From positions 620,001 through 684,000 of the forward strand of contig NZ_AP027130.1 in assembly GCF_027925145.1 (NCBI RefSeq): a stretch of DNA of 64,000 nucleotides, written 5' to 3'. Within the stretch, counting starts at the first letter, position 1; the number at the start of each line of letters is the position of its first letter. This DNA is from Thermodesulfomicrobium sp. WS. GTDB lineage: Bacteria > Desulfobacterota > Desulfovibrionia > Desulfovibrionales > Desulfomicrobiaceae. Below are positions 12,689 through 17,754 of this stretch, in pieces. A program made the translations under genes and the position numbers. The notes under the pieces are model-generated. The model worked only from the letters and a program-made list of their open reading frames with translations, was not told the origin of the DNA and did not search any database.

Positions 12689-12795
12689 GGAATTAGCCAA
12701 ATTGCGCCGTCAAGGCAACTATGGCATGTTTTGCGAGGTGCCCCATTGGGATCACTGCGTGTGTGGAATCGTCATCAACCATGAGGAGTGGAGGT

Positions 12796-13401
12796 ATGTA
12801 CGCAGTCGCTGTGAATGGGAGCCCCCGGAAGGGGGGGAATACGGAAATCTTGTTGCGTCATGTGCTCGAACCCTTGGCCGAGGCCGGCTGGGAGACTGAG
12901 CTGATTCAGGTGGGCGGGCAGAAGATCCGCGGGTGTCAGGCCTGCTACCAATGCTTTGAACGCAAGGATGGGGCCTGCGCCTTCCGTGATGACGTCTTTG
13001 CCGAGATCATGCCCAAGCTCTTGCGCGCCGATGCCATGATCTTGGGATCGCCCACCTATTTTACCGATGTATCGGCGGAGATGAAGGCCCTTCTTGACCG
13101 TGCTGGCCTGGTGGCCATTGCCAACGACCGCGCCTTCAAGGGCAAGATCGGCGCCGCAGTGGTGGCGGTGCGCCGGGGCGGCGGTACGCATGTTTACGAC
13201 ACCATCAACCACATGTTCCTGATGAACCAGGTGATCGTGCCCGGGTCCTCCTATTGGAACTTGGGCTATGGCCGCAACAAGGGCGAGGTCCTCTCCGACG
13301 CCGAAGGGCTGGCCAACATGCGCAACCTCGGCCAGGTCATCGCCTGGCTTGGGGCAGCCATTGCCCCGCACCGGGAGCAGTTCCCGGTGCTGAAGCTCTA
13401 G
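12796..13401 (+). CDS. NADPH-dependent FMN reductase/iron-sulfur flavoprotein-like protein
   Basis: A 201-residue flavodoxin-fold protein of the NAD(P)H-dependent FMN reductase family. The FMN phosphate loop is NGSPRKGGNTE at the N-terminus, and a compact cysteine set (Cys47, Cys50, Cys53, Cys61 in CQACYQCFERKDGAC) resembles the cluster region of iron-sulfur flavoproteins of anaerobes. The start at 12796 is fixed by GGAGG immediately upstream; longer frames lack a site. It is the only plus-strand gene in the first 26 kb, divergent from dppA and convergent with the molybdoenzyme pair. It probably passes electrons from NAD(P)H or ferredoxin; partner unknown. Confidence 0.88.
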   Translation: MYAVAVNGSPRKGGNTEILLRHVLEPLAEAGWETELIQVGGQKIRGCQACYQCFERKDGACAFRDDVFAEIMPKLLRADAMILGSPTYFTDVSAEMKALLDRAGLVAIANDRAFKGKIGAAVVAVRRGGGTHVYDTINHMFLMNQVIVPGSSYWNLGYGRNKGEVLSDAEGLANMRNLGQVIAWLGAAIAPHREQFPVLKL

Positions 13402-13411
13402 CAGGCACCGG

Positions 13412-13437
13412 GTTCCGCCTCCGTTTGGGGGCGGAAC
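13412..13437. terminator. Hairpin between convergent genes
   Basis: GTTCCGCC and GGCGGAAC form an 8-bp stem in the 39-base gap between two converging genes. There is no strong T-tract on either side, so it is at best a weak bidirectional terminator. Confidence 0.5.
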
Positions 13438-13440
13438 AGT

Positions 13441-13899
13441 TTAGGATGCCGATTTCTTTTTTTCAAAGCGCAGGGCATGGGTCGTGCATGAGGTCACACA
13501 TGCAGGAAGCAGTCCTGAGTCCAACCGGTCCATACAGTAGTCACATTTTCCAACTACATTGCGTTCTTCGAAATACACTGGAATATGCCATGGGCATGCT
13601 TCGATGCATTCCTTGCAGCCGATGCAGATGTCCGTTTGCACGTAGACGAGTCCGTCAGACTCCCGTTTGGTCATGGCTCCAGTGGGACAGGCTTCCACGC
13701 AATTGGGATTTTCGCAGTGGTAGCAGCTGCGAAATGCGGTGCGGATGACGACCTTGCCGTCTTTGAGTTCTGGTCCGCAACTTGTCTGCATCGCGTATTT
13801 GATGCCAATGGGCAGATCGTTTTTCACCTTGCAATGGACCTCGCACGCCTTGCAGCTGATGCAGCGATCCTTGTTGAGTTTCATGACGTAGATGCTCAT
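13441..13899 (-). CDS. Four-cluster Fe-S electron-transfer subunit (PsrB/PhsB/DmsB-like)
   Basis: Electron-transfer partner of a molybdopterin oxidoreductase, 152 residues. Four [4Fe-4S] cysteine groups are visible: CISCKACEVHC (Cys13 to Cys23), CYHCENPNCVEACP, CIGCKECIEACP and CDYCMDRLDSGLLPACVTSC, the arrangement of PsrB/DmsB-type subunits but on a short frame. The ATG at 13899 overlaps the stop of the molybdoenzyme gene (ATGA), so the two are translated together. No PsrC/DmsC membrane anchor follows, so where the electrons come from is unclear; the divergent flavoprotein is one possibility. Confidence 0.92.
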   Translation of the reverse strand: MSIYVMKLNKDRCISCKACEVHCKVKNDLPIGIKYAMQTSCGPELKDGKVVIRTAFRSCYHCENPNCVEACPTGAMTKRESDGLVYVQTDICIGCKECIEACPWHIPVYFEERNVVGKCDYCMDRLDSGLLPACVTSCTTHALRFEKKKSAS

Positions 13900-15998
13900 A
13901 TACTGCCCTCCACTTTGCGCACGCGCACGAAATGTTCCTGGAGGCTTAAGCCACTGCCGCCCTTGTCCCACAGTTCCAGTCCTCCAGGCATGCAGCGATT
14001 GTCGGCCGCCCCTTTGCCATACGCCCGGGATTCCACGGGGAGTTGGTGTCCAAAGCCATGCACCATGAAGAGGGCCTCTGGATGGATGCATGGGGTGACC
14101 AGGGCGCGCAGGCGCTGGACCGCACCGGTTTTGGCGATCACTTCCACAAGCTCGCCGTCGGCAATCCCCAGGGCCGCGGCCCGGTCGGTGTGGATCCAGG
14201 CGCGGTTTTCGGGCATCTGTTCTGCCAGGAGGGGGTTGTTGACGGTATGCCCTTGGGTGTGCACCCCCACGCGGCCAAAGGTCACGCGGAACATATCATC
14301 ATCCGGCGGGGCAGCGGGGGACTGGTACGGTACCAGGGTCGGCTGTCCGGCCTTGGCCCATTTGCCGCTCACCATTTCGAGCTTTCCCGAGGGCGTGGGA
14401 AGCGTCACCTGCGCTATTGGCCGGTACAGAGGCGCGTCGGCCAGCTCCACGAAGCCTTTGGCCGCGAAGTCCGCCATGGTGACGCCGGTGCCTTCCAATT
14501 GGTAGTCCCAGATGTCCTCGATGCGGGAAAAGGAAAACCCGGAAAGCTTCAGGCGCCGGGCCAGGCCGCAGAGGATTTCCCATTCGGCCTTGGAGTCGAA
14601 GGTGGGCTCTTGGGCGCGGCGGCGCACGAAGAACTGCGGTTTGAGGCCGGACTTGCTGGCAATGATGCTCTCGCGCGCCAGGTAGGTGGAAAGGGGGAGC
14701 ACCACGTCGGAATGCCACGCCGTATCGGACCAGGAGAAGGTAATGCTCACCAACAGATCCAAGCCTTCCCATTTGCGTTGGACTGCCTCTGGGTCTGGCA
14801 GGGCCATGAGCGGATCGTGGCGGAAGCAGAGGTACGCCTTGACCGGATAAGGGTCGCCGGTGGCGATGGCGTCGTAGGCCAGGTTGACGAGGCCAGGGCC
14901 GGCATCGAATTGGGGGTACTTCCAGCCCACGCCGTCGGCGCGCTTCTCTTCCGGCTTGGGAAAGAGGTCCACCAATTTTTTCAGTCCCTTGCGGCCGACG
15001 TCCTTGGGGGTGTTGGCAAAGGGCAGCCCGCCTTTGGCGCCAATGGACCCGAGCAGGGCATTGATGATGTAAGCGGTGCGGCTCACCTGGAAAGAATCGT
15101 TGTAGCGGGCCACCATCCAGCCAGGGTGCCAGATGACGCTTGGGGCTGCGGCGGCCAGCTCCCGGGCAAAGGCCACTATGTCTGCCGCCGCCACCCCGCA
15201 CTCCGCCGCGGCCCATTGCGCCGTGTAGGGTTGGATAAAGGCACGCAGCTCGTCGAAGCCCGTCACGTATTCTCCAACGAACGCCTCGTTGAAGAGGCCT
15301 TCCGTGATGAGGGTATGGATGACCCCGAGGTTGAAGGCGTAGTCGGTCCCGGGGCGGATGAGGAAGAAGCGGTCCGCCTTGCTTGCCGTGATGGTGCCGC
15401 GGATATCGATGACCGTGAGTTTCGCCCCGGATTGCATGCCGTCCAAGACGGCGTTGACTTCCGCGACGTTGATGGCCTCCATGATATTGCGGGTCTGGAG
15501 GATGATGTGTTTGGCGTTTTTGAAGTCGTAGACCACCATCTTGCGTCCGATGCCCATCACGGATTGCGCGCCGTGCTGGACGTTGCGGGCGCAGGAGACG
15601 TCGTGGTTGCAGTAGTTGGGGGATCCCAGGGCGCGGAGAAACGCCTGATGCAGATCCACGAAAGGACCGCCGCGATCGGACCAGAGCACGGACCTGCCGC
15701 CGTACTGGCCCATGATGGATTCCAGACGTCCGGCCACGTAGTCTAGGGCCTCATCCCAGGAGACCGCCCGCCATTTGCCTTCTCCCCGGGCGCCGGTGCG
15801 GATGAGAGGGGTCTGGGGTTTTTCCGGGTCCCGCTCCAGGGCAATGCCTGCCGCGCCCCGGGCGCACAATGCCCCTTTGAGGGCGCTATGGGGGTTGCCT
15901 TGAATGCGCACGGCCTTGCCGTCGCGCACGTCCACTTGGATGGGGCAGCGCACGGTGCACATGCCGCACACACTGTACACAGAGGTGGTTGCTGTCAT
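13896..15998 (-). CDS. Molybdopterin oxidoreductase catalytic subunit, PsrA/PhsA-like, without Tat signal
   Basis: Catalytic Mo/W-bisPGD subunit of 700 residues in the DMSO-reductase superfamily. The [4Fe-4S] cysteines are Cys11, Cys14, Cys18 and Cys45 (CGMCTVRC and LCARG). The probable metal ligand is Cys136 in NHDVSCARN, like polysulfide and thiosulfate reductases. The protein starts directly at the cluster domain: there is no twin-arginine signal, so it should be cytoplasmic, unlike periplasmic PsrA/PhsA. GGGAGAAG precedes the ATG. The gene is followed only by the Fe-S subunit. The substrate cannot be assigned; sulfur-compound reduction is just one option. Confidence 0.88.
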   Translation of the reverse strand: MTATTSVYSVCGMCTVRCPIQVDVRDGKAVRIQGNPHSALKGALCARGAAGIALERDPEKPQTPLIRTGARGEGKWRAVSWDEALDYVAGRLESIMGQYGGRSVLWSDRGGPFVDLHQAFLRALGSPNYCNHDVSCARNVQHGAQSVMGIGRKMVVYDFKNAKHIILQTRNIMEAINVAEVNAVLDGMQSGAKLTVIDIRGTITASKADRFFLIRPGTDYAFNLGVIHTLITEGLFNEAFVGEYVTGFDELRAFIQPYTAQWAAAECGVAAADIVAFARELAAAAPSVIWHPGWMVARYNDSFQVSRTAYIINALLGSIGAKGGLPFANTPKDVGRKGLKKLVDLFPKPEEKRADGVGWKYPQFDAGPGLVNLAYDAIATGDPYPVKAYLCFRHDPLMALPDPEAVQRKWEGLDLLVSITFSWSDTAWHSDVVLPLSTYLARESIIASKSGLKPQFFVRRRAQEPTFDSKAEWEILCGLARRLKLSGFSFSRIEDIWDYQLEGTGVTMADFAAKGFVELADAPLYRPIAQVTLPTPSGKLEMVSGKWAKAGQPTLVPYQSPAAPPDDDMFRVTFGRVGVHTQGHTVNNPLLAEQMPENRAWIHTDRAAALGIADGELVEVIAKTGAVQRLRALVTPCIHPEALFMVHGFGHQLPVESRAYGKGAADNRCMPGGLELWDKGGSGLSLQEHFVRVRKVEGSI

Positions 15999-16179: not shown

Positions 16180-17754
16180 TCACGCCAAGGCCACCTCCCA
16201 GCCCACGATCTGGCGTTTTGCCGTGCTGAACTCCACGCCCACCTCGATGACGGTGATCCCCGGGGCGCGGTATTTGGCGGCGTAGTTTTTGGCCCGGAGC
16301 TGGGTAAGGGCTGCGCCGGTGGGGGCTTCGCCGTCCACCACTTTGAATTCGAACACCCAGACGGTGTGTTCGTAGCGTACGGCAAGGTCGCAGCGGCCAT
16401 GGGAGCTTATGTCCTCGGGGATGATGGAAAGCCCCAGGGAGGCCAGGTGGCTGTAGAAGACGCTGGCAAAATAGCCCTCGTACTGGGCGATGGGGCTTTT
16501 GCGGTACCAGTCCGCCGGGATGCTCGCAAAAAGGCGCTGGAAATGCCCGTGCACGGCCTCGGTGTCGCCTTGGGCCAGCCAGTCGTAGAGGTCGAGCCCT
16601 GCTTCCCGCACCCGGGTCGGCGCAGGCAGCCAGGCGGTGAGCAGGGCCTCGTTGAGGGCGGTGCGGACTTCGTGGTTGGGCACCCCAAGAAAGTACGCCG
16701 GCCCGGCAGGGGTGGGTCGGGAAGCGTGAATGGTGAGGTATCCGGTCTGCCAGAGCAGGGCCTCGGGCTCGATGCGGTCCACGTCGAAGGCCGAAAGCAG
16801 GGCCTCGCTGGCATAAAGGCGCTCGAGACGCGGGGTGAAAAACTGGTGGCGCATGAGCCACTCTACGAGAAAGGTGGGCGTGGCGGTCTCGAACCACCAG
16901 GCGCGAAATTCCCGTTGGCGCAGGAGCAGCAGCACATCGAAGGGATTGTAGACGCTCGCTTCGCTTCCCCAGCGGTAGCCGTTGTACCAGGCGCGCACTA
17001 TTTCCCGGGAAAGAGGCTGGCCGTCTTGGGCGGCCGCGGCGAACTCCGGGGCAAAGACCGTGTCCAGATCGTCTTCAGTGTAGCCGCAAATGGTGGCCAC
17101 CGAGGCATCCAAGGTAAGGTCATAGAGGTTGTTGAGCCCGGAAAAGAGGCTCACCTTGCTGAACTTGGAGACTCCGGTCAAAAACACGAAGCGCAGGTCC
17201 GCATCCCGGCCCTTGAGCACGGAGTAGAGGTTGCGCAGTCCCTCGCGCATGGCCCGCGCCGTGTCTGGATCGGTGAGGTTGTCGAGGATGGGTTTGTCGT
17301 ATTCATCGACGAGCACCACGGCCTGGCGCTTGTGCTTCTCCGCTGCACGGGTGATGAGCTGACCGAAGCTGCCAGAGGTGTCGTCCAGGTCATCGAGCCC
17401 CACCTGAAGACGCTCGGCGTTTTCGCGCAGGATGCCGCGGATACGGCGGTCCAAATCCGCCCGGCACTCCAATCGGCCCTCGGCAAAGCTGATGCGGATC
17501 ACCGGATGGCGCGAATCCCAATCCCAATGCTCTTGGAGATAGAGGCCGGTGAAGAGCTCCCGGCTCCCGGCAAAGGCCTCGGCCAGGGTGTCGAGAAACA
17601 GGGATTTGCCGAAACGCCGGGGGCGGGAGAGAAAATAGTAGCCGCCGTCTTCGGCGAGCCGTGCCACGAATGGTGTTTTGTCCACGTAGTAGCAGTGTTC
17701 GCGCCGGATCTTGGCAAAGGTCTGGATGCCGATGGGCAGTTTCTTGCGCTCCAT
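16180..17754 (-). CDS. AAA-ATPase-like and PD-(D/E)XK nuclease-like domain protein
   Basis: A 524-residue protein of the widespread AAA-ATPase_like/PDDEXK_9 (DUF1703) family. The N-terminal part begins IGIQTFAKIRREHCYYVDKT and has an ATPase P-loop in SRPRRFGKSL (residues 43-52) and a Walker B VVLVDEYDKPI. The C-terminal part has the nuclease-like core: GRCDLAV supplies the Asp and VFEFKVV the Glu-x-Lys pair. Such genes occur singly and patchily in anaerobes and archaea and their role is unproven; defence or mobile-DNA functions have been suggested. It has its own candidate promoter and is not coupled to either neighbour. Confidence 0.88.
   Translation of the reverse strand: MERKKLPIGIQTFAKIRREHCYYVDKTPFVARLAEDGGYYFLSRPRRFGKSLFLDTLAEAFAGSRELFTGLYLQEHWDWDSRHPVIRISFAEGRLECRADLDRRIRGILRENAERLQVGLDDLDDTSGSFGQLITRAAEKHKRQAVVLVDEYDKPILDNLTDPDTARAMREGLRNLYSVLKGRDADLRFVFLTGVSKFSKVSLFSGLNNLYDLTLDASVATICGYTEDDLDTVFAPEFAAAAQDGQPLSREIVRAWYNGYRWGSEASVYNPFDVLLLLRQREFRAWWFETATPTFLVEWLMRHQFFTPRLERLYASEALLSAFDVDRIEPEALLWQTGYLTIHASRPTPAGPAYFLGVPNHEVRTALNEALLTAWLPAPTRVREAGLDLYDWLAQGDTEAVHGHFQRLFASIPADWYRKSPIAQYEGYFASVFYSHLASLGLSIIPEDISSHGRCDLAVRYEHTVWVFEFKVVDGEAPTGAALTQLRAKNYAAKYRAPGITVIEVGVEFSTAKRQIVGWEVALA

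Follow-up and report, generated by a model that had tools for sequence, protein, structure and literature searches.

A gene pair in Thermodesulfomicrobium sp. WS raises the question of what a molybdoenzyme does, and where it obtains its electrons, when it carries neither a Tat signal nor a membrane anchor. An earlier note on the window (the whole stretch of DNA analyzed, 64,000 nucleotides) had described a PsrA/PhsA-like catalytic subunit with a cysteine metal ligand that begins immediately with its Fe-S domain and is followed by only a four-cluster subunit. It had taken the complex to be soluble and cytoplasmic, with a convergent Fe-S flavoprotein as a candidate electron partner, and had called the reaction unknown. 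The features concerned are as follows.

13896-15998, minus strand: catalytic subunit gene, 700 aa, ATG start, Pfam domains PF04879, PF00384 and PF01568
13441-13899, minus strand: gene of the four-cluster Fe-S subunit (PhsB/PsrB-like), 152 aa, Fer4_11 domain (PF13247)
13400-13440: intergenic region separating the Fe-S gene from the convergent flavoprotein gene, with the inverted repeat GTTCCGCC...GGCGGAAC
12721-13401 (ORF; probable start at 12796), plus strand: convergent FMN_red-family flavoprotein gene, PF03358, CX2CX2CX7C motif

The anatomy of the pair agreed with that description. The [4Fe-4S] domain of the catalytic subunit occupies residues 5-52, right at the start of the protein, and is followed by the molybdopterin and C-terminal dinucleotide-binding domains (Pfam). 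A 4-bp overlap (ATGA) joins the ATG of the Fe-S gene at 13899 to the stop codon of the catalytic gene; a 216-aa ORF from 14091 was rejected as the Fe-S gene because it reaches upstream into the catalytic gene, and the ATG at 13899 is the true start. Four four-cysteine motifs take 16 of the 17 cysteines of the Fe-S subunit, for which no signal peptide was found and whose best PDB match was PsrB (2vpw_B). Downstream, the inverted repeat is possibly a terminator shared by the Fe-S and flavoprotein genes; the consensus terminator scan listed nothing at 13400-13440. Directly upstream of the catalytic gene lies an AAA-ATPase/PD-(D/E)XK nuclease-type gene (16180-17754, minus strand), a similar C-terminal part of which occurs at 306.5 kb of the same genome (L192:1-720). 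Recoding of in-frame TAG, TGA or TAA codons in many relatives was also considered and dismissed, as these were, where checked, ordinary stops lying three or four codons short of the query's end.

The catalytic subunit belongs to the PsrA/PhsA/SrrA family, since the tree, the cysteine ligand, the four-cluster partner, and the HMM and fold scores agree. Its best NCBIfam model was PhsA (NF012032), whose score of 498.9 bits stays below the equivalog cut-off of 694, while the ArrA equivalog model gave 146 bits (cut-off 1600). Thermus PsrA (2vpw) was the best PDB relative by both sequence and profile, with a profile score of 446 bits versus 241.9 for acetylene hydratase. The AlphaFold model (mean pLDDT 89.7) likewise matched PsrA best, with a Z score of 42.4 over 682 residues at 30% identity, ArrA being next at 36.6. 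The cysteine metal ligand described in the earlier note was confirmed as Cys136 (Mo/W ligand), which lines up with Thermus PsrA Cys173 and does not vary among 23 aligned orthologues. His145 and Arg332 of PsrA correspond here to Arg109 and Trp294, both again invariant among the 23 orthologues, and because of these replacements the substrate could differ.

In a maximum-likelihood tree, 29 Tat-less sequences formed one clade with a support of 100/100, which was joined at 99/99 by a second Tat-less clade about 42% (41-43%) identical to it. This group was set apart from the Tat-bearing PsrA-like paralogues, enterobacterial PhsA, TtrA, DmsA, the formate dehydrogenases, and acetylene hydratase of Pelobacter, the last forming a separate long branch with which the catalytic subunit did not group. 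The likeness to PsrA and PhsA was borne out by the clade's position beside the PsrA, Tat-PsrA and PhsA lines, the branching order among which is not firm. Because several reference branches were long, we relied on the unity and the separateness of the Tat-less group only; ArrA was absent from the tree and was judged by HMM and fold.

A missed upstream start with a twin-arginine signal, named beforehand as a finding that would overturn a cytoplasmic location, was looked for and was absent. Upstream of the catalytic ATG, the frame meets a stop within 53 codons and offers no further ATG, GTG or TTG, and its translation contains neither an RRx(F/L) signal nor a hydrophobic stretch. As a loose RR pattern matched several artificially extended upstream frames, a stricter pattern was used together with a hydrophobicity check. 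Only 1 of the 155 orthologues matched this pattern upstream, and that one had no hydrophobic segment, leaving 0/155 with a credible signal, whereas pattern and hydrophobic segment were both present in 12/12 periplasmic PsrA/PhsA-type relatives; the strict pattern was found in 0/4 members of the sister Tat-less clade. The lack of a signal thus characterizes the whole lineage and does not stem from a misannotation of this genome.

The search for an anchor gave a matching picture. With five anchor queries, tblastn found no NrfD/PsrC/PhsC-type gene in the window, and anchor genes (four NrfD types and PhsC) were located near none of the 42 loci from the order, near 2/80 named loci and near 2/32 phylum-level loci; the two named loci had Hmc- or Qrc-type matches several kilobases off. 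The genome itself encodes four NrfD proteins, situated beside dsrA, in Hmc, in Qrc and in a TtrBCA-like set, of which those in Hmc and Qrc passed the HmcC and QrcB models. This genome-wide search covered anchors of the NrfD type, as distinct from those of the DmsC and cytochrome-b types, and the NrfD_2 family (PF14589), matching nothing in control genomes either, was of no use as a probe. The TtrBCA-like set (469.5-475.8 kb; L187:1-6314) comprises a Tat-bearing TtrA-like molybdoenzyme of 1067 aa, far under the TtrA equivalog cut-off, its dedicated Fe-S and NrfD subunits, and a neighbouring FmdE-like gene. The catalytic/Fe-S pair has an HmcC-like NrfD gene and a further Fe-S gene directly upstream in two related phylum-level genomes of small size (1.8 Mb; L231:5544-10256, L240:4427-9143); this is the only lineage seen with an adjoining anchor-like gene. 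Collectively, these data support the prediction that the enzyme is a soluble, cytoplasmic, two-subunit complex with neither Tat signal nor anchor, and that this holds for the whole lineage.

The lineage is widespread in sulfate-reducing bacteria and is of an already named kind. Close relatives of the catalytic subunit (E <= 1e-200) were present in 133/247 genomes of the order and in 56 of the 296 genomes sampled over the phylum, and the 80 named loci came from Desulfomicrobium, Nitratidesulfovibrio, Pseudodesulfovibrio, Solidesulfovibrio, Desulfosarcina, Desulfopila, Desulfamplus and others. One genome (G023) shows that members of the sister clade (L058, L059, L060, L061) and of the first clade may occur together. 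The organism of the window, whose genome is a complete 2.36-Mb chromosome with Desulfomicrobium-named records among its nearest relatives, encodes DsrA and is thus probably a sulfate or sulfite reducer.

The neighbour genes of the relatives revealed two linkages. First, Pfam-checked genes of the TauE/SafE sulfite-exporter family were found at 30/80 named, 18/42 order and 12/32 phylum-level loci, frequently sharing a run with the Fe-S gene or immediately preceding the catalytic gene, versus 0/10 loci of Tat-bearing paralogues; this enrichment is a matter of counts only, as the controls are few (10 loci) and related genomes are not independent. Eight such genes exist in the whole genome of the window's organism. 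Second, outside the order, the Fe-S gene is followed by a gene for an approximately 720-residue flavoprotein that combines a GltD-type FAD/NAD(P)H module with Fe-S clusters, present at 18/80 named and 6/32 phylum-level loci. Several loci have the order SafE, catalytic, Fe-S, GltD-like, and in the sister clade the TauE/SafE, Fe-S and GltD-like genes were together at 4/4 loci, although in one of them (L059) the GltD-like match was partial and at the end of the locus. Genes with FmdE/molybdopterin-binding domains were frequent, too (22/80 named loci). In some Desulfobacterota, a formate dehydrogenase alpha-like subunit appears as two open frames upstream of the thiosulfate-reductase-like gene (L129:5136-7817, L141:4113-6869), possibly split by a selenocysteine codon.

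As for the reaction, the earlier verdict appears too pessimistic: the clade most likely represents the enzymes called PhsAB in sulfate reducers (PMC4215793), whose mutants have mild, thiosulfate-specific phenotypes, and genes of the sulfite-exporter family are overrepresented at its loci. In Desulfovibrio alaskensis G20, mutants of the presumed orthologue Dde_1076:Dde_1075 were slightly less fit on lactate/thiosulfate, with a fitness below that under every other energetic condition, and a phsA mutant of D. vulgaris, again a presumed orthologue, grew more slowly on lactate/thiosulfate (PMC4215793). PhsA of Oceanidesulfovibrio, a presumed orthologue, when expressed in Escherichia coli, increased H2S production from thiosulfate (PMC10989961). 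PhsAB-1 and PhsAB-2 of Desulfolithobacter also lack a subunit C, and the paper that described them noted in 2022 that PhsAB had until then not been studied functionally (PMC9751629). The published mutants of presumed orthologues support thiosulfate as the substrate.

We consider it probable that the gene pair encodes a soluble cytoplasmic thiosulfate reductase of the PhsAB type, with sulfite going to cytoplasmic DsrAB. The catalytic subunit would hold Mo/W-bisPGD through Cys136 and would use two electrons to split thiosulfate at its S-S bond, yielding sulfite and sulfide. The electrons would be drawn from a soluble low-potential donor rather than from quinol and would pass through the four clusters of the Fe-S subunit and the N-terminal cluster of the catalytic subunit to the active site. 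The product sulfite would then be reduced by DsrAB or exported, and sulfite as product fits both DsrAB and the sulfite-exporter-family neighbours. We infer the electron donor, the direction of the reaction and the coupling to DsrAB. Points that weigh against this reading are the PhsA score under the equivalog cut-off, the two active-site replacements, the mildness of the phenotypes in mutants of the presumed orthologues and, for the donor, the rarity of the GltD-like gene in the order.

It is less likely, and on balance improbable, that an enzyme of the same architecture serves as a cytoplasmic polysulfide or sulfur reductase converting polysulfide or protein-bound persulfide to sulfide. Such a function would suit Thermus PsrA being the closest solved relative in sequence and fold, as well as the published phylogeny that places PsrA, PhsA and SrrA in one family (PMC10100899). 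However, His145 and Arg332 of PsrA are not kept, the sulfite-exporter-family linkage suits a sulfite-producing reaction better, and the reported mutant phenotype concerns thiosulfate (PMC4215793). Even more doubtful is a main role in disproportionation or in the reverse, oxidative direction, by which the enzyme would run a thiosulfate shunt between the sulfite and sulfide pools. G20 does release thiosulfate during sulfate reduction (PMC4215793), and PhsA-type orthologues occur in disproportionators and non-disproportionators alike, but PhsA was scarce during thiosulfate disproportionation in Desulfolithobacter (PMC9751629) and the mutants were impaired in growth by thiosulfate reduction.

If the pair reduces thiosulfate in the cytoplasm, as we propose, the donor in the related Desulfobacterota would most likely be NAD(P)H, acting through the GltD/Nfn-type flavoprotein encoded right after the Fe-S gene. 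The best PDB relatives of this flavoprotein were 9bov and 8oh5 (large subunits annotated as molybdopterin oxidoreductase/formate dehydrogenase), NfnA-type proteins, dihydropyrimidine dehydrogenase and glutamate synthase; the first two belong to what we take to be Stn-type bifurcating complexes. Across the order, a strong relative of the GltD-like protein was detected in just 6 of the 150 genomes. As it is missing from the other 144, that of the window's organism included, the NAD(P)H proposal does not carry over to this organism, whose donor, like that of most of its order, would probably be ferredoxin or a pyridine-nucleotide enzyme encoded elsewhere. Within this genome, the search for a GltD-like partner returned only an NfnB-type protein (the best match, 40% over 404 residues, beside an NfnA-like gene) and, second, a glutamate-synthase-type protein, and neither was accepted as the partner. 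With much reserve, one might go further and regard the Tat-less lineage as a distinct class of NAD(P)H- or ferredoxin-driven cytoplasmic reductases of thiosulfate (or of another sulfur compound), with Arg109 and Trp294 as a signature, which in some Desulfobacterota would form part of a larger Nfn/Stn-like complex that could link thiosulfate reduction to pyridine nucleotides and ferredoxin.

The convergent flavoprotein at 12.8 kb, by contrast, is very unlikely to be the dedicated donor that the earlier note suspected. Its ORF is a real gene, it adjoins the pair and encodes a compact cysteine motif, and the genome has no GltD-like partner. Nevertheless, it lies on the opposite strand and is absent at all of the 42 loci of orthologues from the order, among them Desulfomicrobium-type loci whose enzyme is 75-80% identical; the conserved linkage looked for in close relatives was not found. 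Elsewhere, only weak matches (34% over about 102 aa) occurred, at 1/80 named and 1/32 phylum-level loci, and on this genomic evidence the flavoprotein is probably unrelated to the molybdoenzyme. Although clearly assigned to PF03358, the protein itself (12796-13401, plus strand) matched no PDB sequence at E 1e-5. Finally, Tat complexes with a signal on one subunit only do exist, but it is scarcely credible that this complex is co-exported with a different Tat protein and uses a membrane subunit whose gene lies elsewhere, as neither subunit carries a signal, none of the 155 orthologous catalytic subunits has a credible one, and all four NrfD genes of the genome are assigned to other operons.

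A cytoplasmic thiosulfate reductase would hand over sulfite where DsrAB works and would sidestep the energetic problem of driving thiosulfate reduction (reduction potential of about -0.4 V) with menaquinol across the membrane. This analysis adds the absence of Tat signals throughout the lineage, two gene linkages and differences at the active site; together they make the electron-donor question testable, with the sulfite-exporter-family gene and the GltD/Nfn-type flavoprotein pointing to the product route and the donor, respectively.

Among known systems, the closest counterparts are the PhsAB enzymes of sulfate reducers (G20 Dde_1076:Dde_1075, Desulfolithobacter PhsAB-1 and PhsAB-2), with which orthology is presumed: they share the two subunits, the lack of a C subunit, the occurrence in sulfate-reducing Desulfobacterota and thiosulfate as the presumed substrate. 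The window's pair has the features of such a soluble PhsAB, namely a Tat-less catalytic and a four-cluster subunit, no C subunit, and conservation in sulfate reducers. Enterobacterial PhsABC resembles it in its catalytic subunit (33% identical), the cysteine ligand and the four-cluster partner PhsB (41% identical), but it differs in its Tat signal (SRRSFL) and in having PhsC as a membrane subunit. The enzyme of the window has neither and thus falls outside the respiratory type, no PhsC/NrfD gene being found in the window or near the 42 order loci. PsrABC of Thermus thermophilus (2vpw), in which PsrA is exported and anchored by PsrC, offers the best fold match (Z 42.4 over 682 residues) and the equivalent ligand (Cys173 for Cys136), and differs in having His145 and Arg332 in place of Arg109 and Trp294. 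The Nfn/Stn-type and GltD-type NAD(P)H flavoproteins, in turn, are the PDB matches of the flavoprotein encoded beside the relatives' enzyme, a partner gene absent from the window and from most genomes of its order.
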